Origin: Streptomyces flaveolus
Lineage (GTDB): Bacteria > Actinomycetota > Actinomycetes > Streptomycetales > Streptomycetaceae
Length of the DNA: 64,000 bases
Assembly: GCF_000716535.1 (NCBI RefSeq)
Contig: NZ_JNWV01000009.1
Coordinates: forward strand, 1-64,000
Direction: 5' to 3'
Below the pieces are notes generated by a model that made no database searches, had not been told where the DNA came from, and saw only the letters and a list, made by a program, of their open reading frames with translations. This document shows positions 12,691-22,696 of this stretch, in pieces; position 1 is the first letter of the stretch, and the number at the start of each line of letters is the position of its first letter. Made by a program: the position numbers and the translations under genes.

Positions 12691-13734
12691 ATGTCTCGCA
12701 GCATCAATCTCGCAGTGATCCCCGGTGACGGCATCGGCCAGGAGGTCGTGGCCGAGGGTCTCAAGGTCCTCTCCGCCGTCCTGCCGCAGGATGTGAAGCT
12801 GGAGACCAAGGAGTACGACTTCGGCGCCAAGCGCTACCACGCCACCGGTGAGACCCTCACCGACGCCGACCTCGACTCCCTCAAGCGGCACGACGCCATT
12901 CTGCTCGGCGCCATCGGCGACCCGTCGGTGCCGTCCGGCGTGCTGGAGCGGGGCTTCCTGCTCAAGCTCCGCTTCGCCTTCGACCACCACGTCAACCTGC
13001 GTCCGTCGAAGCTGCTCCCGGGTGTCGCCACCCCGCTCGCCGGCCAGCCGGAGATCGACTTCGTCGTCGTCCGCGAGGGCACCGAGGGCCCGTACACCGG
13101 CAACGGCGGCACCATCCGCAAGGGCACCGCGCACGAGGTCGCCACCGAGGTGTCCGTCAACACCGCCTTCGGTGTCGAGCGCGTCGTCCGTGACGCCTTC
13201 GCGCGCGCCCAGGCCCGCCCGCGCAAGAAGCTCACGCTGGTCCACAAGAACAACGTGCTGACCTTCGCCGGGCACCTGTGGACGAACATCTTCAACAAGG
13301 TGGCCGAGGAGTACCCCGAGGTCACCACCGACTACATCCACGTCGACGCCGCGACCATCTACCTGGTCACCGACCCCGGCCGGTTCGACGTCATCGTCAC
13401 CGACAACCTCTTCGGCGACATCATCACCGACCTCGCCGCGGCCGTCTCCGGCGGCATCGGCGTGGCCGCCTCCGGCAACATCAACCCCACCCGCGAGTTC
13501 CCGTCCATGTTCGAGCCGGTCCACGGCTCGGCCCCGGACATCGCCGGCCAGGGCAAGGCCGACCCCACCGCCACCGTCCTGTCCGTCGCCCTGCTGCTGC
13601 GCCACCTCGGTTACGACACCGAGGCCGACCGGATCGACGCGGCGGTCACCGCCGACCTCACGGAGCGTGCCGGGAAGCCGGCCCGCTCCACCTCCGAGAT
13701 CGGCGACGCGCTCGCCGTACGCGTAGCCGGCTGA
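12691..13734 (+). CDS. leuB: 3-isopropylmalate dehydrogenase
   Basis: LeuB oxidatively decarboxylates 3-isopropylmalate to 2-ketoisocaproate in leucine synthesis, with NAD+ and Mg2+/Mn2+. The 347-residue protein shows [11 protein letters not shown] at the N-terminus, substrate-site [40 protein letters not shown], and the metal/NAD region [29 protein letters not shown] with [25 protein letters not shown] precedes the ATG by 12 bp. The gene stands alone with its own terminator, while leuC and leuD lie 42 kb away. Confidence 0.97.
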
Positions 13735-13971: not shown

Positions 13972-15060
13972 ATGACGACGCCCACGATCGAGCTCAAGCC
14001 CTCCGCCAGCCCGCTCGCCGCCGCGGAACGCGAGGCGATCCTGGCCAACCCGGGGTTCGGCCGCCACTTCACCGACCACATGGTGACGATCAGGTGGACC
14101 GAGGGCCGCGGCTGGCACGACGCCCAGCTCGTTCCGTACGGGCCGATCTCCCTGGACCCGTCCACGCACGTCCTGCACTACGGCCAGGAGATCTTCGAGG
14201 GCCTGAAGGCCTACCGCCAGCCCGACGGCTCGGTCGCGCTGTTCCGTCCCGAGGCCAACGCCCGCCGCTTCCGCAACTCCGCCCGCCGCATGGCGATGGC
14301 CGAGCTGCCCGAGGAGCTGTTCATCGCCGCGCTGGACGCGCTGCTCACGCAGGACGCCGACTGGGTCCCGCCGCACGGCGGCGAGGCCTCCCTCTACCTG
14401 CGGCCGTTCATGTTCGCCACGGAGGCCGCGCTCGGCGTGCACCCGGCGAACGAGTACCTGTTCATGCTGATCGCCTCCCCGTCCGGCGCGTACTTCGCCG
14501 GCGGCGTGAAGCCGGTCACCATCTGGGTCTCCGAGGACCACGTCCGCGCCGTCCCGGGCGGCACCGGCGACGCCAAGACCGGCGGCAACTACGCCGCGTC
14601 CCTGCTGCCGCAGGCCGAGGCCGCCGCGCACGGCTGCGACCAGGTCGTCTACCTCGACGCGGTCACCCGCACCAAGGTCGAGGAGAGCGGCAGCATGAAC
14701 GTCGCGTTCGTCTACGGCGACCGGATCGTCACCCCGTCGCTCACCGGCTCCATCCTGGAGGGCATCACCCGCGACTCCCTCCTCCAGGTCGCCCGTGACC
14801 TGGGCTACACGGCCGAGGAGGGTGTGGTCACCCTCCAGCAGTGGCGCGAGGACGCGGCGTCCGGTGCGCTGACCGAGGTCTTCGCGTGCGGCACCGCCGC
14901 CGTGGTCACGCCGATCGGTCACGTCAAGACCAAGACCGACCAGTGGTCCCACGGCGACGGCACGCCCGGGCCGGTCACCGGGCGGCTGCGCGAGGCGCTG
15001 CTCGGTATCCAGCGGGGCCTGACCGAGGACAAGCACGGCTGGATGCACCGGGTCGGCTGA
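13972..15060 (+). CDS. ilvE: Branched-chain amino acid aminotransferase
   Basis: IlvE transaminates the 2-keto acids of Leu, Ile and Val with glutamate, using PLP. It is 362 residues, the class IV fold. The PLP lysine is probably K202 in [54 protein letters not shown] and [11 protein letters not shown] are the family's active-site segments. The 5' gap of 186 bp contains a possible 15-codon frame (13885-13932) but no run of branched-chain codons. An unusually long inverted repeat follows the gene. Confidence 0.96.
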
Positions 15061-15181: not shown

Positions 15182-15266
15182 TTAGAGCATTGCTCAAAAT
15201 GAAAGGAGCTACCCATCCGGACAGTGCTTCTCTTTCACGGATTCCCTGTTTAGAGTGATGCTCTAA
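15182..15266. promoter_or_regulatory. Paired TTAGAG-N4-GCTC operators before the urease-like operon
   Basis: TTAGAGCATTGCTC at 15182-15195 and TTAGAGTGATGCTCTAA at 15250-15266 share TTAGAG-N4-GCTC, and the second has perfect 6-bp arms. They flank an AT-richer promoter stretch just upstream of ureAB. The operon's own TetR protein (18827-19432) is the natural candidate to bind them. Confidence 0.65.
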
Positions 15267-15294
15267 CCTGGGGAAGCCAAGGAGGTGCCGGGTC

Positions 15295-16017
15295 GTGAGA
15301 CTGACCCCCACGGAACGTGACCGGCTGCTGCTCTTCGGGGCCGCCGAGCTGGCCCGGGCCCGCCGTGCGCGCGGCCTGCGGCTGAACGTGCCCGAGGCCA
15401 CCGCGCTGATCGCGGACACCGTCTGCGAGGCCGCCCGCGACGGCAAACGACTCGGCGAGGCCGTCGAGGCGGCCCGGTCGGTGCTCGGCCCCGAGGACGT
15501 CCTGCCGGGTGTCGCCGACGTCGTCACCGAGGTGATGGTCGAGGCCGTCTTCGACGACGGCTCCCGGCTCGCGGTCGTCTCCGACCCCATCGGCTGGGGG
15601 TCCCCCCGCGAAGCAGGGGGAGGCCTGGGCGCGGACGCCCCGGGCGCGCTGCTCCCCGGCCCCGGGCACGCGGACCCCGAGCCCGTCGTCCGGCTCCGCG
15701 TCACCAACACCGCGAGCGTGCCGGTCTCCGTCACCTCCCACTTCCACTTCTTCGAGGCCAACCCCCGCCTCGACTTCGACCGCGGGGCGGCCTACGGCAT
15801 GCGACTGGCCGTACCCGCCGGATCCTCCGTCCGCTTCGGACCGGGGGAGAGCGCGGAGGTCGGGCTCGTGCCCATCGGCGGCGAGCGGATCGCGATCGGC
15901 TTCGCCGGACTGGTCGACGGTCCGCTGGACGCGCCCGGAGCGAAGGAGGAAGCCCTCCGCAGGGCCGCCGCCTGCGGCTACCTGGGAGCGGCACCGGAAG
16001 GAGGCGAGGAGCGATGA
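15295..16017 (+). CDS. ureAB: Fused urease gamma-beta subunit homologue
   Basis: This 240-residue protein joins urease gamma (about 1-100: LTPTERDRLLLFGAAELARARRARG, LNVPEATALI, GVADVVTEVMVEAVFDDGSRL) to beta (about 130-230: VVRLRVTNTASVPVSVTSHFHFFEANPRLDFDR, RLAVPAGSSVRFGPGES). Gamma-beta fusions are known in Helicobacter and some actinobacteria. The GTG start follows AAGGAGG at 15279. The linker contains a GC-rich hairpin repeat translated in frame. Its stop overlaps ureC by ATGA. No ureD/E/F/G accessory gene is in the window, and the alpha partner is divergent, so ordinary urease activity should not be assumed. Confidence 0.85.
   Translation: MRLTPTERDRLLLFGAAELARARRARGLRLNVPEATALIADTVCEAARDGKRLGEAVEAARSVLGPEDVLPGVADVVTEVMVEAVFDDGSRLAVVSDPIGWGSPREAGGGLGADAPGALLPGPGHADPEPVVRLRVTNTASVPVSVTSHFHFFEANPRLDFDRGAAYGMRLAVPAGSSVRFGPGESAEVGLVPIGGERIAIGFAGLVDGPLDAPGAKEEALRRAAACGYLGAAPEGGEER
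15595..15623. repeat. In-frame GGGGGT/CCCCC...GGGGGAGG hairpin repeat inside ureAB
   Basis: The 29-bp segment has C-run 15602-15607, loop GCGAAGCA and G-run 15616-15620, encoding about GWGSPREAGGG. It resembles the short form of a dispersed Streptomyces hairpin of the type GGGGGTCCCCCCG...GGGGGAGG (from memory) that occurs in intergenic and occasionally coding sequence. It sits precisely in the gamma-beta linker. Confidence 0.6.
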
Positions 16018-17756
16018 GCCGCTCGAAGGGACGCGAGGTGAGCCGGTCGATCCACGTCGACCCGCACGCCTACGCCGCCACCCACGGCCCCCGCGCCGGC
16101 GACCGCATCCGCCTCGGCGACTCCGGGCTCACCGTGCGCGTCGAGTCCGACTCCCAGAAGTACGGCGACGAGTTCCTGGCCGGCTTCGGCAAGACCGCCC
16201 GCGACGGGCTGCACCTGAAGGCCGCCGCCGTCCGGGACACCTGTGACGTCGTGATCAGCAACGTCGTCGTGATCGACGCGGTGCAGGGGATCAGGAAGGT
16301 GTCCATCGGCATCCGCGAGGGCCGCATCTGCGCCATCGGGCGGGCCGGCAACCCGGACACCCTGGACGGCGTGGACGTCGTCGTCGGCACCGGCACCTCG
16401 ATCGTCTCCGGCGAGGGGCTGATCGCCACCGCCGGCGCTGTCGACACGCATGTGCACCTGCTGTCGCCGCGCATCATGGAGGCGTCCCTCGCCTCGGGCG
16501 TCACCACGATCATCGGGCAGGAGTTCGGCCCGGTGTGGGGCGTCGGCGTCAACTCGCCGTGGGCGCTGCGGCACGCCTTCAACGCCTTCGACGCCTGGCC
16601 GGTCAACATCGGCTTCCTGGGCCGGGGTTCGTCGTCCCACGGCGCGCCGCTCGTCGAAGCCCTCGCCGAGGGCGGGGCGAGCGGCTTCAAGGTGCACGAG
16701 GACATGGGCGCCCACACCCGCGCCCTGGACACCGCCCTGCGCGTCGCCGAGGAGCACGACGTCCAAGTCGCCCTGCACAGCGACGGGTTGAACGAGTGCC
16801 TGTCGGTCGAGGACACCCTGCGGGTGCTGGAGGGCCGCACGATCCACGCCTTCCACATCGAGGGCTGCGGCGGCGGACACGTGCCCAACGTGCTGAAGAT
16901 GGCCGGCGTCCCGAACGTCATCGGCTCCTCCACCAACCCCACCCTGCCCTTCGGCCGGGACGCGGTAGCCGAGCACTACGGCATGATCGTCTCCGTCCAC
17001 GACCTGAAGACCGACCTGCCCGGCGACGCGGCCATGGCCCGTGACCGCATCCGGGCCGGCACGATGGGCGCCGAGGACGTGCTGCACGACCTGGGCGCGA
17101 TCGGCATCACCTCCTCCGACGCCCAGGGCATGGGCCGGGCCGGTGAGACGGTCCGCCGCACCTTCGCCATGGCCGGCAAGATGAAGGCCGAGCTGGGGCC
17201 CCTGCTTCCCCACGACGGGGAGGGCGGCGACCGCGAGGGCGACGACAACGCGCGCGTCCTGCGCTACATGGCCAAGCTGACCATCAACCCGGCCATCGCC
17301 CACGGGCTCGCCCACGAGGTCGGCTCGATCGAGGCCGGCAAGCTCGCCGACATCGTGCTGTGGCGCCCGGAGTACTTCGGGGCCAAGCCGCAGCTCGTCC
17401 TGAAGGCCGGCTTCCCGGCGTACGGCGTGGTCGGCGACCCGAACGCGGCCACCGACACCTGCGAACCCCTCGTCCTGGGCCCGCAGTTCGGGTCGTACGG
17501 CGCCACGGCCGCCGACCTCTCGGTGGCGTTCGTCGCCCGGGCCGCCGCCGACCAGGGCAACGACCGGATGCCGACCCGGCGCAGAAGGGTCGCCGTGCGC
17601 GGCACCCGGGGCATCGGACCCGCCGACCTGCGCCTGAACTCCCGTACCGGAGCGGTGGACGTCGACCGGCACACCGGCCTGGTCACCCTCGACGGCGAGC
17701 CGCTGCGCTCCGAACCGGCCGACTCCGTCTCCCTCAACCGCCTCTACTTCCTCTAA
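16014..17756 (+). CDS. ureC: Divergent urease alpha subunit (dinickel amidohydrolase)
   Basis: This is a 580-residue urease alpha homologue. All dinickel ligands are present: H146/H148 (DTHVH), K226 for carbamylation (GFKVHEDMG), H255 (ALHSDGLNE), H281 (FHIEG) and D369 (TSSDAQGMGR). The mobile-flap catalytic Cys (C319 in Klebsiella, MVCHH) is Val328 here (VSVHDL), although the adjacent His is kept. The loop after the first metal motif is about four residues shorter than in Klebsiella (GQEFGPVWGVGVNSPWAL). Translation is coupled to ureAB. With agmatine deiminase and an MHS transporter downstream, a ureido substrate other than urea is conceivable. GTG 16038 is an alternative start. Confidence 0.85.
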   Translation: MSRSKGREVSRSIHVDPHAYAATHGPRAGDRIRLGDSGLTVRVESDSQKYGDEFLAGFGKTARDGLHLKAAAVRDTCDVVISNVVVIDAVQGIRKVSIGIREGRICAIGRAGNPDTLDGVDVVVGTGTSIVSGEGLIATAGAVDTHVHLLSPRIMEASLASGVTTIIGQEFGPVWGVGVNSPWALRHAFNAFDAWPVNIGFLGRGSSSHGAPLVEALAEGGASGFKVHEDMGAHTRALDTALRVAEEHDVQVALHSDGLNECLSVEDTLRVLEGRTIHAFHIEGCGGGHVPNVLKMAGVPNVIGSSTNPTLPFGRDAVAEHYGMIVSVHDLKTDLPGDAAMARDRIRAGTMGAEDVLHDLGAIGITSSDAQGMGRAGETVRRTFAMAGKMKAELGPLLPHDGEGGDREGDDNARVLRYMAKLTINPAIAHGLAHEVGSIEAGKLADIVLWRPEYFGAKPQLVLKAGFPAYGVVGDPNAATDTCEPLVLGPQFGSYGATAADLSVAFVARAAADQGNDRMPTRRRRVAVRGTRGIGPADLRLNSRTGAVDVDRHTGLVTLDGEPLRSEPADSVSLNRLYFL

Positions 17757-17767
17757 GGACCCGCGCC

Positions 17768-18808
17768 ATGAGCACCCCCGCCGCCGACGGCTTCCACATG
17801 CCCGCCGAGTGGGCACCCCACGAGCGCACCTGGATGGCCTGGCCCAGCCCCAACCCCACCTTCGAGGACCCGGACGACCTGGCCGCCGCCCGGACCGCCT
17901 GGGCGGCGGTGGCCCGCGCCGTCCGCCGCTTCGAGCCGGTGACGGTCGTGTGCGGCCCCGGCCAGTCGGCGGACGCCCGGGCGCTGCTCGGCCCGGACGT
18001 CGACACCGTCGAGCGGGACCTGGACGACGCCTGGATGCGGGACATCGGCCCCACCTTCCTCACCGACGGCCGGGGCCGACTGGCCGCCGTGGACTGGACG
18101 TTCAACGGCTGGGGCGCCCAGGACTGGGCCCGCTGGGAGCACGACTCCAAGATCGGCGCGTACGTGTCCGACCTCGCGGGCGCCAGGACGTACGCCTCCG
18201 AGCTGGTCAACGAGGGCGGCGCGATCCACGTCGACGGCGAGGGGACCGTGCTGCTCACCGAGACCGTGCAGCTCGGGCCCGAGCGCAACCCGCACCGGAC
18301 CAAGGAGGAGGTCGAGGCGGAGATCCACGCCCACCTCGGCACCAGCAAGGCGATATGGCTGCCGCGCGGCCTGACCGGCGACTACCCTCCCCACGGCTTC
18401 GGGACCCTCGGCCACGTCGACATCGTCGCCGCGTTCGCCCGGCCGGGTGTCGTGGTCGCCCACCACCAGCCGGACCCGGCGCACCCCGACCACGAGGTCA
18501 CCAAGGAGGTCATCGGCCTGCTGAAGTCGGCGACCGACGCCCGGGGCCGCCGCCTGGAGGTCGTGGAGGTGCCCGCGCCGACCGCACTGGAGGCCGACGG
18601 CCACTGGGCCGACTACTCCTACATCAACCACTACCTCTGCAACGGCGGCGTGGTGCTGTGCGGCTTCGACGACCCGCGCGACGAGATCGCCGCCGGGATC
18701 TTCCGGCGCCTGTTCCCGGAGCGGACGGTGACGCTGGTGGACGCGCGTACGATCTTCGCGGGCGGGGGCGGAATCCACTGCATCACGCAACAGCAGCCGA
18801 AGGTCTGA
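17768..18808 (+). CDS. aguA: Agmatine deiminase (peptidyl-arginine deiminase fold)
   Basis: The enzyme converts agmatine to N-carbamoylputrescine plus ammonia. It is 346 residues. The family signatures are RTWMAWP, the substrate-site DDAWMRDIGPTFL, NEGGAIHVDGEGT, FGTLGHVDIVAAF and the catalytic Cys C338 in GGGGIHCITQQQP. It begins 11 bp after ureC in the same operon. The usual next enzyme, N-carbamoylputrescine amidase (AguB), is not in the window, which makes the neighbouring urease-like pair interesting. A related enzyme acting on another guanidino compound cannot be excluded. Confidence 0.92.
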   Translation: MSTPAADGFHMPAEWAPHERTWMAWPSPNPTFEDPDDLAAARTAWAAVARAVRRFEPVTVVCGPGQSADARALLGPDVDTVERDLDDAWMRDIGPTFLTDGRGRLAAVDWTFNGWGAQDWARWEHDSKIGAYVSDLAGARTYASELVNEGGAIHVDGEGTVLLTETVQLGPERNPHRTKEEVEAEIHAHLGTSKAIWLPRGLTGDYPPHGFGTLGHVDIVAAFARPGVVVAHHQPDPAHPDHEVTKEVIGLLKSATDARGRRLEVVEVPAPTALEADGHWADYSYINHYLCNGGVVLCGFDDPRDEIAAGIFRRLFPERTVTLVDARTIFAGGGGIHCITQQQPKV

Positions 18809-18826
18809 CACACACGGGAGCAGCAG

Positions 18827-19432
18827 ATGACCGGTGCGGGCCGGGCGCGCAGGAACGCGCCGCCGCGCGAGGAGGTCCTCGCCGCCGCCATGGACATGAT
18901 CGCCGAGCGCGGTCTGGAGAAGCTCACCATGGCGGCGCTGGGCCGCGAGGTCGGCATGAGCAGCGGCCACCTGCTGTACTACTTCCGCTCCAAGGACGAG
19001 CTGCTGCTCCAGGCTCTGGAGTGGAGCGAGGGCCGGCTGGGCGCGGAACGGGGCCGCCTGCTGGCCGGTCCGGGCACCGCGCGGGAACGTCTGTCCGCAT
19101 ACGTCGACCTGTACGTGCCCGACGGCCACCGCGACCCGCACTGGACGCTGTGGCTGGAGGTGTGGAACCGGTCGCAGAACGCCGACGACGACGCGCGCGC
19201 CCGGCAGGCGGCGATCGAGGGCGCGTGGCACAGGGACCTGGTCGCCCTGGTCGCCGAGGGGATCTCCAGGGGGGAGTTCCGTCCGGTGGACGCGGACCGC
19301 TTCGCGACGAGGCTGCGTGCGCTGTTGGACGGGTTCTCGATCCACGTCGCCATCGGACTGCGCGGCACCGATCGTGACCAAGTGCTGGCGCACGTGCGGG
19401 AGTTCGTCGAGGAAGCGCTGCCGGTCGCCTAG
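18827..19432 (+). CDS. TetR-family regulator of the urease-like/agmatine operon
   Basis: This is a 201-residue protein with a TetR DNA-binding domain at the N-terminus: REEVLAAAMDMIAERGLEKLTMAALGREVGMSSGHLLYYFRSKDELL (about 10-57). The C-terminal part is BetI-like (PHWTLWLEVWNRSQ, FRPVDADRFATRLRALLDGFSIH). It lies 18 bp after agmatine deiminase and before the transporter. It probably autoregulates the operon through the TTAGAG sites at 15182-15266. The ligand may be a polyamine-related compound, by context only. Confidence 0.88.
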   Translation: MTGAGRARRNAPPREEVLAAAMDMIAERGLEKLTMAALGREVGMSSGHLLYYFRSKDELLLQALEWSEGRLGAERGRLLAGPGTARERLSAYVDLYVPDGHRDPHWTLWLEVWNRSQNADDDARARQAAIEGAWHRDLVALVAEGISRGEFRPVDADRFATRLRALLDGFSIHVAIGLRGTDRDQVLAHVREFVEEALPVA

Positions 19433-19499
19433 CCGCGGCGCCGTCGTGGCCGGTCGCGCGGAGGAATCCTTCAGTCCGCCACCGGGCAGGTAACGGCCC

Positions 19500-20801
19500 A
19501 TGGGACGACAACACTGGAAGAAGATCTGGGTCGGCTCGGCGGGCAACATGGTCGAGTGGTTCGACTGGTTCGTGTACGCGAGCTTCGCCACCTACTTCGC
19601 CGGCGCGTTCTTCCCGAGCGGCAACCCCACCGCCCAGTTGATGAACACCGCCGGCATCTTCGCCGTCGGCTTCTTCATGCGCCCCGTCGGCGGCTGGCTG
19701 CTGGGCAGGGTCGGTGACCGCAAGGGCCGCAAGGCGGCGCTGACCCTGACCGTCACGCTCATGTCGGCCTCGGCGATCCTCATCGCCGTCGCCCCCACCT
19801 ACGGGGTCGCCGGCTACGGCGGAGCCCTCGTGCTGCTCGTCGCCCGCCTGCTCCAGGGCCTGTCGGTGGGCGGCGAGTACGCGGCCAGCGCCACCTACCT
19901 GACCGAGGCATCGGACCCGAGGCGGCGCGGCTTCGCGTCCAGCTTCCAGTACGTGTCCATGACCGCCGGCCAGATCGTCGGCCTCGGCCTGCAGATCGTC
20001 CTCCAGCGCACCATGTCCGACGACGCCCTGCACAGCTACGGCTGGCGCATCCCGTTCGTCGTCGGCGCGCTCGGCGCGGCCGTCGTCTTCTATCTGCGCC
20101 GGAACATGCTGGAGACCGAGGTCTACGAGGAGGACACCTCACACGGCGAGGAGCGCGGCACCCTGCGCGCGCTGTGGCAGCACAGGCGGGAGGCGTTCCT
20201 GGTGATCGCCCTCACCATGGGCGGCACGGTGGCGTACTACACGTACACCACCTATCTGACCAAGTACCTGTCGAACTCGGCGGGGCTGTCCAAGGAGACC
20301 GCCACGCTCGTCTCGTTCACCGCGCTGATCGTCTTCGCCTGTCTCCAGCCGCTCGCGGGCGCCCTCTCCGACCGCATCGGACGCCGCCCGCTGCTGATCA
20401 CCTTCGCCGTCGGATCCACCTTCCTCACGGTCCCGATCATGACGCTGCTGCGGCACGCGGACGGCTACTGGTCCGCCCTCGGCCTCGCCCTGCTCGCCCT
20501 GGTCGTGGTCACCGGCTACACCTCCATCAACGCCTGCGTGAAGGCCGAGCTGTTCCCGACCGGCATCCGCGCGCTCGGTGTCGCCCTGCCGTACGCCATC
20601 GCCAACGCCCTCTTCGGCGGCACCGCCGAGTACGTCGCCCTGTGGTTCAAGAAGGGCGGCGTCGAGTCCGGCTTCTACTGGTACGTGGCCGGCTGTGCCG
20701 CCGTGTCCCTCGTGGTGTACGTCACCATGCGGGAGACCAAGGACCTCGATCTGGCCCGGGTGAAGGCAGGCGAGGATTCCACGCTGACGCCCGCATCCTG
20801 A
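19500..20801 (+). CDS. MFS transporter, metabolite:H+ symporter (MHS) type
   Basis: This 433-residue membrane protein is of the MHS branch (proline/betaine, shikimate and alpha-ketoglutarate permeases). Motifs are GNMVEWFDWFVYA in helix 1, GRVGDRKGRKAAL (motif A), LLQGLSVGGEYAAS, a second GALSDRIGRRPLL, and AELFPTGIRALGVALPYAIAN near the C-terminus. About 12 helices are apparent. It closes the urease-like/agmatine operon 67 bp after tetR, so import of the operon's substrate (agmatine or another guanidino/ureido compound) is likely but unproven. Confidence 0.88.
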   Translation: MGRQHWKKIWVGSAGNMVEWFDWFVYASFATYFAGAFFPSGNPTAQLMNTAGIFAVGFFMRPVGGWLLGRVGDRKGRKAALTLTVTLMSASAILIAVAPTYGVAGYGGALVLLVARLLQGLSVGGEYAASATYLTEASDPRRRGFASSFQYVSMTAGQIVGLGLQIVLQRTMSDDALHSYGWRIPFVVGALGAAVVFYLRRNMLETEVYEEDTSHGEERGTLRALWQHRREAFLVIALTMGGTVAYYTYTTYLTKYLSNSAGLSKETATLVSFTALIVFACLQPLAGALSDRIGRRPLLITFAVGSTFLTVPIMTLLRHADGYWSALGLALLALVVVTGYTSINACVKAELFPTGIRALGVALPYAIANALFGGTAEYVALWFKKGGVESGFYWYVAGCAAVSLVVYVTMRETKDLDLARVKAGEDSTLTPAS

Positions 20802-21085: not shown

Positions 21086-22696
21086 ATGACCGAGACGGCA
21101 ACCAGCGAGCTCGACGACTCGTTCCACGTCTTCGACACCACGCTGCGCGACGGCGCGCAGCGCGAGGGCATCAACCTCACCGTCGCGGACAAGCTCGCCA
21201 TCGCCCGGCACCTGGACGACTTCGGCGTGGGCTTCATCGAGGGCGGCTGGCCCGGCGCGAACCCCCGCGACACGGAGTTCTTCGCCCGCGCGCAAGCGGA
21301 GATCGACTTCCGGCACGCCCAGCTCGTCGCCTTCGGCGCCACCCGCCGCGCCGGCACCACAGCCGCCGAGGACCCCCAGGTCAAGGCCCTGCTGAGCTCC
21401 GGCGCCCCGGTGATCACGCTGGTCGCCAAGTCGCACGACCGGCACGTGGAGCTGGCGCTGCGCACCACGCTGGACGAGAACCTGGAGATGGTCCGCGACA
21501 CCGTGTCGTACCTGCGCGAGCAGGGCCGCCGGGTCTTCGTGGACTGCGAGCACTTCTTCGACGGCTACCGCGCCAACCCCGAGTACGCCAAGGCGGTCGT
21601 CCGCACCGCCTCGGAAGCCGGCGCCGACGTCGTCATCCTCTGCGACACCAACGGCGGCATGCTCCCCGCCCAGGTCCACGCGGTCGTCGCCACCGTCCTC
21701 GCCGACACCGGCGCCCGGCTCGGCATCCACGCCCAGGACGACACCGGCTGCGCGGTCGCCAACACCCTGGCCGCCGTCGACGCGGGCGCCACCCACGTGC
21801 AGTGCACGGCCAACGGCTACGGCGAGCGCGTCGGCAACGCCAACCTGTTCCCGGTCGTCGCCGCCCTGGAACTGAAGTACGGCAAGAAGGTGCTGCCCGA
21901 GGGCCGGCTGCGCGAGATGACCCGCATCTCCCACGCCATTGCCGAGGTCGTCAACCTGACGCCGTCGACCCACCAGCCGTACGTGGGAGTTTCGGCCTTC
22001 GCGCACAAGGCCGGCCTGCACGCCTCCGCCATCAAGGTCGACCCGGACCTGTACCAGCACATCGACCCAGAGCTGGTCGGCAACACCATGCGCATGCTCG
22101 TCTCCGACATGGCGGGCCGCGCCTCGGTCGAGCTGAAGGGCAAGGAGCTGGGCATCGACCTGAGCGGCGACCGCGAGCTGGTCGGCCGGGTGGTCGAGCG
22201 GGTGAAGGAGCGGGAGCTCGAGGGCTACACGTACGAGGCGGCGGACGCCTCGTTCGAGCTGCTGCTGCGCGCCGAGGCCGAGGGCAGGCCGCTGAAGTAC
22301 TTCGAGGTCGAGTCCTGGCGGGCCATCGTGGAGGACCGGCCCGACGGCACCCACGCCAACGAGGCCACGGTCAAGCTGTGGGCCAAGAGCGAGCGGATCG
22401 TCGCCACCGCCGAGGGCAACGGCCCGGTGAACGCCCTGGACCGCGCCCTGCGCGTGGCGCTGGAGAAGATCTACCCGCAGCTCGCCAAGCTGGACCTGGT
22501 CGACTACAAGGTCCGCATCCTGGAGGGCAAGCACGGCACCCAGTCCACCACCCGCGTGCTGATCTCCACCTCGGACGGCTCCGGCGAGTGGGCCACGGTC
22601 GGCGTGGCCGAGAACGTCATCGCCGCCTCCTGGCAGGCCCTGGAGGACGCGTACACGTACGGCCTCCTCCGCGCGGGCGTTGAGCCGGCGGAGTAG
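21086..22696 (+). CDS. cimA: (R)-citramalate synthase
   Basis: CimA condenses pyruvate and acetyl-CoA to citramalate, a threonine-independent route to 2-ketobutyrate and isoleucine. It is 536 residues. The DRE-TIM barrel has VFDTTLRDGAQREGINLTVADKL with metal Asp in TTLRDG, FIEGGWPGANPRDTEFF, CDTNGGMLP, GIHAQDDTGCAVANTLAAVDAGATHVQCTANGYGERVGNAN and a C-terminal LeuA-dimer-type regulatory domain (about 400-536). The GGWPGxNPxD signature separates this branch from LeuA. It is preceded by the attenuator-like leader; branched-chain control would fit. Confidence 0.92.
   Translation: MTETATSELDDSFHVFDTTLRDGAQREGINLTVADKLAIARHLDDFGVGFIEGGWPGANPRDTEFFARAQAEIDFRHAQLVAFGATRRAGTTAAEDPQVKALLSSGAPVITLVAKSHDRHVELALRTTLDENLEMVRDTVSYLREQGRRVFVDCEHFFDGYRANPEYAKAVVRTASEAGADVVILCDTNGGMLPAQVHAVVATVLADTGARLGIHAQDDTGCAVANTLAAVDAGATHVQCTANGYGERVGNANLFPVVAALELKYGKKVLPEGRLREMTRISHAIAEVVNLTPSTHQPYVGVSAFAHKAGLHASAIKVDPDLYQHIDPELVGNTMRMLVSDMAGRASVELKGKELGIDLSGDRELVGRVVERVKERELEGYTYEAADASFELLLRAEAEGRPLKYFEVESWRAIVEDRPDGTHANEATVKLWAKSERIVATAEGNGPVNALDRALRVALEKIYPQLAKLDLVDYKVRILEGKHGTQSTTRVLISTSDGSGEWATVGVAENVIAASWQALEDAYTYGLLRAGVEPAE

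Follow-up and report, generated by a model that had tools for sequence, protein, structure and literature searches.

A Streptomyces operon pairs a divergent urease-like enzyme, kept in genomes with neither UreG nor UreD detected, with a predicted guanidino hydrolase

The stretch of Streptomyces flaveolus DNA analyzed here (64,000 nucleotides of contig NZ_JNWV01000009.1, hereafter the window) carries, within positions 15295-20801, five genes on the plus strand: ureAB, ureC2, aguL, tetR, and a gene for a transporter of the metabolite:H+ symporter (MHS) family (Table 1). We use UreC2 for the divergent UreC of this operon and AguL for its agmatine-deiminase-family protein. The tight packing of the five genes on one strand, claimed in a preliminary description made from the sequence alone, is borne out: ureAB and ureC2 overlap by 4 bp, the subsequent gaps are 11, 18, and 67 bp, and Pfam/NCBIfam profiles back every gene name (Urease_gamma and Urease_beta, Urease_alpha and Amidohydro_1, PAD_porph, a BetI-type TetR, and the metabolite:H+ symporter family, in operon order). 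A leuB-ilvE pair flanks the operon on one side and a citramalate-synthase-like gene on the other. Within ureAB, positions 15598-15623 form a G/C-rich, inverted-repeat-like stretch, an in-frame insert in the gamma-beta linker that the window shares with locus L036 and that the 26 other aligned ureAB proteins lack.

As for UreC2, several lines of evidence set it apart as a distinct urease-like group. Its score against TIGR01792 is 634.5 bits, under the equivalog cut-off of 680. Among the matches listed, the closest named UreC sequences are 96-98% identical and come from Streptomyces, and an identity gap within the order separates the UreC2 group (79-100%) from canonical UreC (46-50%). In a sample drawn at class level, the group reaches down to 53% identity, in families f26, f29, f36, f40, f41, and f42. 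In an unrooted maximum-likelihood tree, all 44 UreC2 rows fall on one side of a branch with a support of 100/100; can_L033 was left out of this tree, the ureC2 of L121 was included via its tblastn range, and those of L161 and L162 likewise come from tblastn ranges, the gene caller having given none. The enzyme was therefore rightly called divergent in the preliminary description, by its sub-cut-off score as well as by its fully supported tree group. Searches further afield were narrower in reach. Among the at least 120 matches listed, the protein-database search showed no named UreC2 from beyond Actinobacteria, the named sequences being all from Streptomyces, and a phylum-wide search found the group in Streptomyces only, at a strict threshold (E<=1e-170) and with few small-genome families sampled.

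We then compared UreC2 with the canonical nickel urease UreABC (that of K. aerogenes and the one encoded at L003 in this genome), using what we take to be K. aerogenes numbering and a survey of 119 UreC2 proteins from which L107 and the short loci L007-L029 are missing. The two share the same subunits and fold family. The six metal ligands H134, H136, K217, H246, H272, and D360 are kept in 119/119 UreC2 proteins, as are His219, His320, and Arg336. However, in contrast to the canonical enzyme, the gamma and beta subunits are fused, Trp is found at position 222 and His at position 321 in none of the 119, and position 363 is Gly in all of them. This last position is Ala in most canonical rows, three canonical rows of family f6 sharing the Gly. 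The flap Cys319 of the Cys-His-His motif is replaced in 116/119 and kept only in L131, L137, and L154. Moreover, a four-residue deletion comes after the altered loop QEFGPVWGVGVNS, behind the WGVGVNS stretch. A TGA was flagged within seven UreC2 matches; in the four inspected (L122, L123, L126, and L154) it lies upstream of the start codon, and three remain (G111, G165, and G171).

A third UreC type, UreC3, also occurs in Streptomyces (L163 8042-9730 in genome G084, L164, and L165), at loci with a fused UreAB, an Amidohydro_3-like gene, and an MFS/MHS-like gene. UreG was not found in two UreC3 genomes (G084 and G178) and is present in the third (G131). We considered UreC3 as a member of the UreC2 group, which the tree rejects, although its placement is unsure because long branches meet.

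The ureases are the standard example of a metal enzyme whose production strictly depends on dedicated chaperones. The preliminary description had remarked on the absence of ureDEFG. This stands for the locus but not for the genome, since the strain has UreD and UreG beside a canonical urease, in a ureABC-F-G-D cluster on another contig. Local absence was thus rejected as evidence in itself and replaced by a genome-wide test, after which the missing accessory genes, first taken as a local feature, proved to be the more important point. At the level of loci, UreG had no match in any UreC2-group locus examined, and the canonical loci L140-L146 were 7/7 positive; a UreF query, run on the fetched loci, matched canonical loci only, but with poor sensitivity, as it missed four of these (L141, L142, L144, and L146). 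At the level of whole genomes, our searches were confined to UreD (PF01774) and UreG (TIGR00101), in 41 UreC2 genomes, partly chosen for apparent absence of canonical urease, and in three canonical controls, all positive. A convincing UreG was found in 18 of the 41, with 16 over the cut-off, one full-length but sub-cut-off (G040), and one partial at a contig end (G441). In the other 23, no convincing UreG was detected and UreD was over its cut-off in none; 21 of them gave no match to either protein at E<=0.001, the remaining two being G064, with sub-cut-off matches, and G205, with a single 46-bit match.

We also used evenly drawn samples, for which the UreG runs scored only part of the first-look candidates, and G090 and G178 in a single pass. 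In the class sample, UreG was not found in 23/57 UreC2 genomes, and in 21/29 of those outside Streptomyces; UreD was over its cut-off in none of the 22 of these 23 in which it was sought, G090 being the one left out. In the order sample, UreG was not found in 4/96 UreC2 genomes (G064, G090, G177, and G178). As a control, UreG is present in 38/41 order-sample genomes that have another UreC but no UreC2, the three exceptions being G084 (which has a further UreC type), G128, and G175, and in 0/10 genomes without any UreC. Several of the UreG-less assemblies are nearly closed, for example G064 (5 contigs), G177 (6 contigs), and G517 (about 10 contigs).

UreC2 is nevertheless under purifying selection in genomes where UreG was not found, as judged from coding sequences. 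The ratio of nonsynonymous to synonymous substitution rates (dN/dS) is 0.02-0.14 over six pairs of UreG-less genomes outside Streptomyces (L133/L135, L124/L126, L124/L125, L136/L161, L128/L129, and L132/L134); a further pair, L138/L139, is saturated. Within Streptomyces it is 0.145 for G064/G177, where loss of UreG may be recent. In G064, ureAB-ureC2-aguL-tetR is full-length despite a broken canonical cluster, and no UreG over the cut-off was found in the genome. Its maintenance in genomes that yielded neither UreG nor UreD suggests that UreC2 can do without the nickel-insertion machinery. Its maturation, and perhaps its action, thus probably departs from that of a textbook urease. That its metal is other than nickel is a guess, unassisted loading of nickel being possible as well. 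A side observation concerns the canonical cluster of G064 (L167 5051-9593), in which UreC is in two pieces about 1.8 kb apart and a remnant of UreD is left.

Compared with canonical urease, UreC2 thus lacks UreG at its loci and often in its genome as well. In being kept in genomes without a detected UreD or UreG, the group resembles the Helicobacter iron urease UreA2B2, which reportedly requires no accessory proteins. PDB entry 3qga ("Urease subunit beta 2"), which we take to be this iron urease, matches UreC2 with 500.9 bits, inside the 473-534 range of the other full-length ureases listed, and is not in our tree. The hosts of the two systems belong to different phyla. UreA2B2 is described as an iron-cofactored second urease alongside the canonical nickel one (PMC11541087).

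Next, we considered AguL, which belongs to the same family (PF04371) as the agmatine deiminases and iminohydrolases (AguA and plant AIH; PDB 1vkp and 6nib), a plant agmatine iminohydrolase being its nearest solved structure by sequence. It is the one PAD_porph gene found in this genome with the AguL query. Its score against TIGR03380, the agmatine deiminase equivalog, is 317.1 bits, short of the cut-off of 381.8. In 97 AguL-labeled proteins adjoining UreAB/UreC2, the pentein catalytic residues (Cys366, His224, Asp226, and Asp94 of the plant enzyme MtAIH) are kept without exception. Both Trp are kept in AguL as well. The differences from AguA and AIH lie elsewhere, in the gate loop, which is shorter, and in the residue that holds the substrate's tail; in addition, no AguB adjoins AguL. 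In MtAIH, Asp220 hydrogen-bonds the terminal amine of agmatine (PMC6447857). The aligned position is Gly, before a conserved T-x-G-H, in 95/97 AguL proteins, the two others being more distant paralogues in L152 and L153. This loss of the amine-binding acid, together with the short gate loop, makes agmatine doubtful as the substrate of AguL. The PAD_porph genes of L127-L130 and of L152/L153 were also considered as AguL and rejected, since motif and identity (35-44%) mark them as AguA-like or of another type; the AguA-like proteins of L127-L129, for example, have a DETDGH motif with Glu at the Asp220 position.

The association of AguL with UreC2 is conserved. The preliminary description had pointed to co-conservation of this ureC clade with an aguA-type gene as a check, and in the order sample AguL is found in 95 of 96 UreC2 genomes. 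Counting AguL at an identity of at least 65%, the 147 genomes of that sample divide into 95 with both proteins, one with UreC2 only (G121, at a contig edge), six with AguL only, and 45 with neither. The two genes also stand side by side in several families. The aguL gene follows ureC2, in the same gene order, in families f1, f3 (4/4), and f19 (6/7), and lies upstream in two of the nine f36 loci (L138 and L139) and in G002/L151. In L130 (8633-12721, minus strand, family f40), a distant PAD_porph gene (39% identity), a TetR gene (38%), ureAB, and ureC2 stand in a row on one strand, overlapping or nearly so in an operon-like fashion, which widens the association between the deiminase family and UreC2.

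Other neighbors of UreC2 vary between families. In L131 and L133-L137, the gene immediately before ureAB encodes an Amidohydro_3-like protein (confirmed by Pfam in L131, L133, and L134), and polyamine-type ATP-binding cassette (ABC) transporter genes lie near UreC2 in L124 (f26), L131 (f36), and L133 (f41). Those of L124 (10679-14883) are convergent with UreC2 and encode a PotD-like substrate-binding protein whose score falls far short of the equivalog cut-off. In L133, ureC2 is followed downstream by genes for a C45 acyltransferase, a D-amino-acid-dehydrogenase-like protein, and a PotA-like protein. At L152 and L153 (genomes G004 and G012), second copies of UreC2 are accompanied by several further PAD_porph paralogues; some of these carry long N-terminal extensions resembling export signals, and L152 has an oligopeptide-type ABC transporter.

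The shared candidate operator proposed earlier can now be specified as two near-palindromes upstream of ureAB, the proximal of which is widely kept. With at most one mismatch allowed, the pattern matches nowhere else in the 64 kb, where chance would give 0.01 matches. Our survey covered the 78 Streptomyces loci whose upstream sequence was long enough. Among the seven without a match to the proximal-box pattern, six show the box on visual inspection (with a variant end in L107), and in the seventh, L040, the upstream sequence is cut at a mis-called start. Conservation of the operon itself was assessed in the best 80 UreC2 loci from named genomes, all Streptomyces, a set biased to near relatives. 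By tblastn, ureAB and ureC2 are present in 80/80 and aguL and tetR in 79/80, L058 being truncated by a contig edge. By gene calling, the MHS gene, present in 24/80, is kept less often than the other four, and a 165-amino-acid protein without a Pfam match occurs in 19/80. A gene for an NCS1-like permease, divergent from and adjoining ureAB, is present in 59/80 loci and missing from the window; it was identified by Pfam in L038 and by similarity to the L038 gene in the remaining loci. The NCS1 family consists mostly of nucleobase, hydantoin, and allantoin carriers. Since the boxes lie between this divergent gene and ureAB in most strains, we infer that TetR controls both.

Table 1. Features of the ureAB-ureC2 operon and its flanks (window coordinates), with related genes at other loci
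Feature	Position	Strand	Evidence and conservation
Distal operator-like palindrome TTAGAGCATTGCTCAAA	15182-15198	.	Pattern scan; similar box upstream in 52/78 loci (stricter pattern)
Proximal operator-like palindrome TTAGAGTGATGCTCTAA, 28 bp before ureAB	15250-15266	.	Pattern match in 71/78 Streptomyces loci
ureAB, fused urease gamma/beta subunit, 240 amino acids, GTG start	15295-16017	+	PF00547, PF00699; NF009671 317.4 bits (cut-off 243)
ureC2, divergent urease alpha-like metal-dependent amidohydrolase, 580 amino acids	16014-17756	+	PF00449/PF01979; under TIGR01792 cut-off
aguL, agmatine-deiminase-family guanidino hydrolase (predicted), 346 amino acids	17768-18808	+	PF04371 366 bits; under TIGR03380 cut-off
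tetR, TetR-family regulator, BetI-type C-terminal domain, presumed operon repressor	18827-19432	+	PF13977, PF00440
MHS-family transporter, 433 amino acids, variable member	19500-20801	+	TIGR00883 395 bits (cut-off 443)
leuB-like isopropylmalate dehydrogenase, conserved flank outside module	12691-13734	+	PF00180; 71/80 loci
ilvE-like class IV aminotransferase, conserved flank	13972-15060	+	PF01063; 75/80 loci
Citramalate/isopropylmalate synthase-like gene (called cimA), conserved flank	21086-22696	+	PF00682, PF08502; 73/80 loci
Amidohydro_3 genes, other actinobacterial families	L131 6475-8094; L133 11597-13189; L134 6906-8516

We also looked for AguB, the absence of which had been remarked upon in the preliminary description. 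This holds in that none is encoded in the operon and no gene of the genome scores as high as the TIGR03381 cut-off (410 bits), in a search that did not extend to putrescine transcarbamylase, with the qualification that the genome has two nitrilases scoring 255-260 bits, its best. Both of these AguB-like nitrilases lie at L156 3599-12493 (C20 of this genome), beside genes that by eye are dihydropyrimidinase/hydantoinase-like, aminotransferase-like, PucR-like, and NCS1-like, a neighborhood for which we take them to be ureidopropionase-type enzymes.

The probable orthologous locus in S. coelicolor, judging by names and numbering only, is SCO5525-SCO5527. An earlier study lists SCO5527 and SCO6414 among the homologues of arginine decarboxylase pathway genes, calls SCO5525-5526 ureABC, and reports no effect of arginine or ArgR on the ure genes (PMC3293853). 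A 2008 paper states that this Streptomyces urease cluster consists only of ure(AB)C (PMC2492869). A third paper uses SCO5526-SCO5524 for nrdABS (PMC4991794), which looks like a misprint. The relevant portions of the two accounts of SCO5525-5527 treat neither independence of this urease from accessory proteins nor a link to SCO5527 (PMC3293853, PMC2492869). Among the open-licence PMC papers listed for accessory-free or actinobacterial ureases, we found no study of the UreC2 enzyme and nothing on the group beyond the papers cited here.

Together, these findings lead us to favor, tentatively and with the case close to evenly balanced, a TetR-controlled nitrogen-scavenging module in which AguL makes a ureide that a chaperone-independent UreAB/UreC2 hydrolyzes. 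The AguL substrate would be a small compound, probably other than agmatine, whose guanidino group loses ammonia to give a ureide. As a urease-fold dinuclear metal amidohydrolase matured without UreD or UreG, UreAB/UreC2 would then hydrolyze this ureide to ammonia, CO2, and an amine. TetR, acting at the two palindromes, would keep the operon silent until a permease brings the compound in; this permease would be the divergent NCS1-type protein in most Streptomyces loci and the MHS transporter here. The divergence of the UreC2 group and its conserved pairing with AguL make a deiminase followed by a ureide-hydrolyzing amidohydrolase a reasonable pathway. Recruitment of the urease-like enzyme for a ureide, in a ureide-degrading pair with AguL, is therefore plausible, and better founded than when it was first suggested. 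Read directly from sequence are the order of the genes, the two boxes, the kept metal ligands and altered pocket residues, the association of AguL with UreC2, and purifying selection on UreC2 in genomes that yielded neither UreG nor UreD; the metal, the substrate, the sequence of the two reactions, and binding by TetR are inferred.

This reading has to be set against several observations and four rivals. First, this strain and most others of the order sample that have UreC2 (92/96 genomes) also carry UreG, so that in most Streptomyces with UreC2 help in trans is possible. UreC2 could then be an ordinary nickel urease, the second of the genome, served by the UreDFG of the canonical cluster, with AguL an incidental neighbor, a view that the intact set of six metal ligands and catalytic His/Arg would suit. 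We consider it unlikely, because UreG was not found in 23/57 UreC2 genomes of the class sample, flap and pocket residues are altered group-wide, and the score is under that of the TIGR01792 equivalog.

Second, in the scheme first proposed, AguL converts agmatine to N-carbamoylputrescine and UreC2 stands in for AguB. In its favor are the membership of AguL in the agmatine deiminase family, the absence of an AguB over the cut-off in the genome, the polyamine-type ABC genes of L124, L131, and L133, and the listing of SCO5527 and SCO6414 with the arginine decarboxylase pathway (PMC3293853). However, AguL has Gly where plant AIH has its amine-binding acid, although a longer neighboring loop could contribute another acid, its gate loop is shortened, its TIGR03380 score is sub-cut-off, and the usual partner permease in Streptomyces is NCS1-like, from a family with the other substrates named above. 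N-carbamoylputrescine, the substrate originally proposed, is thus a doubtful candidate, and the whole scheme is somewhat more improbable than that of a borrowed nickel urease. We give as little weight to the possibility that AguL turns guanidine, or a very small alkylguanidine, into urea or an alkylurea that UreC2 then hydrolyzes. The lost tail-binding acid and the shorter gate loop do suit a substrate without an aminobutyl tail, and the chemistry follows from the enzyme families, but urea as the intermediate would explain neither the changed urea pocket and flap nor the retention of UreC2 beside a canonical urease.

Third, AguL and UreC2 each occur without the other, and the claim that the module is "self-contained" is not supported. 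Shared ancestry is ignored in the Fisher test for their co-occurrence, whose p of ~5e-30 is therefore generous. Six genomes have AguL but no UreC2. In four of these (G105, G119, G158, and G091), aguL immediately follows ilvE, and neither ureAB-ureC2 nor an NCS1 gene separates them; in G137, only one small opposite-strand frame intervenes, and in G061 the contig ends before ilvE. In the five whose contig reaches that far, tetR follows aguL, which indicates that AguL can be useful alone. Conversely, no AguL adjoins UreC2 in f26, f29, f40, f41, f42 (near a contig end), and seven of nine f36 loci. That the two enzymes act on different substrates, with the regulator alone in common, would accommodate these cases but is likewise quite unlikely given their adjacency in four families (f1, f3, f19, and f36) in both gene orders and their co-occurrence in 95 of 96 UreC2 genomes of the order sample. 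A side observation at L168-L173, the loci where aguL stands without ureAB-ureC2 or an NCS1 gene, is that in several, genes of about 324, 542, 357, and 326 amino acids follow cimA.

Returning to the nitrogen-scavenging reading, a wider proposal can be framed, which we offer as a possibility and with more hesitation. UreAB/UreC2 may be a widespread actinobacterial urease-fold enzyme that is chaperone-free, probably non-nickel, and active on substituted ureas instead of urea, forming with AguL a guanidino-to-ureide-to-ammonia pathway. It would then represent a second independent escape from UreDEFG, next to that of the Helicobacter iron urease. What surprises most is the persistence of UreC2 in genomes that yielded neither UreG nor UreD. 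A large group annotated as "urease subunit alpha" that retains all of the metal ligands and is yet held by purifying selection there would make the role of the chaperones testable with two natural homologues in one strain. For Actinobacteria, small-genome lineages included, this means that a ureC gene is no proof of ureolysis unless its type is checked. For Streptomyces, it points to an uncharacterized nitrogen pathway that may run from guanidino compounds through ureides.

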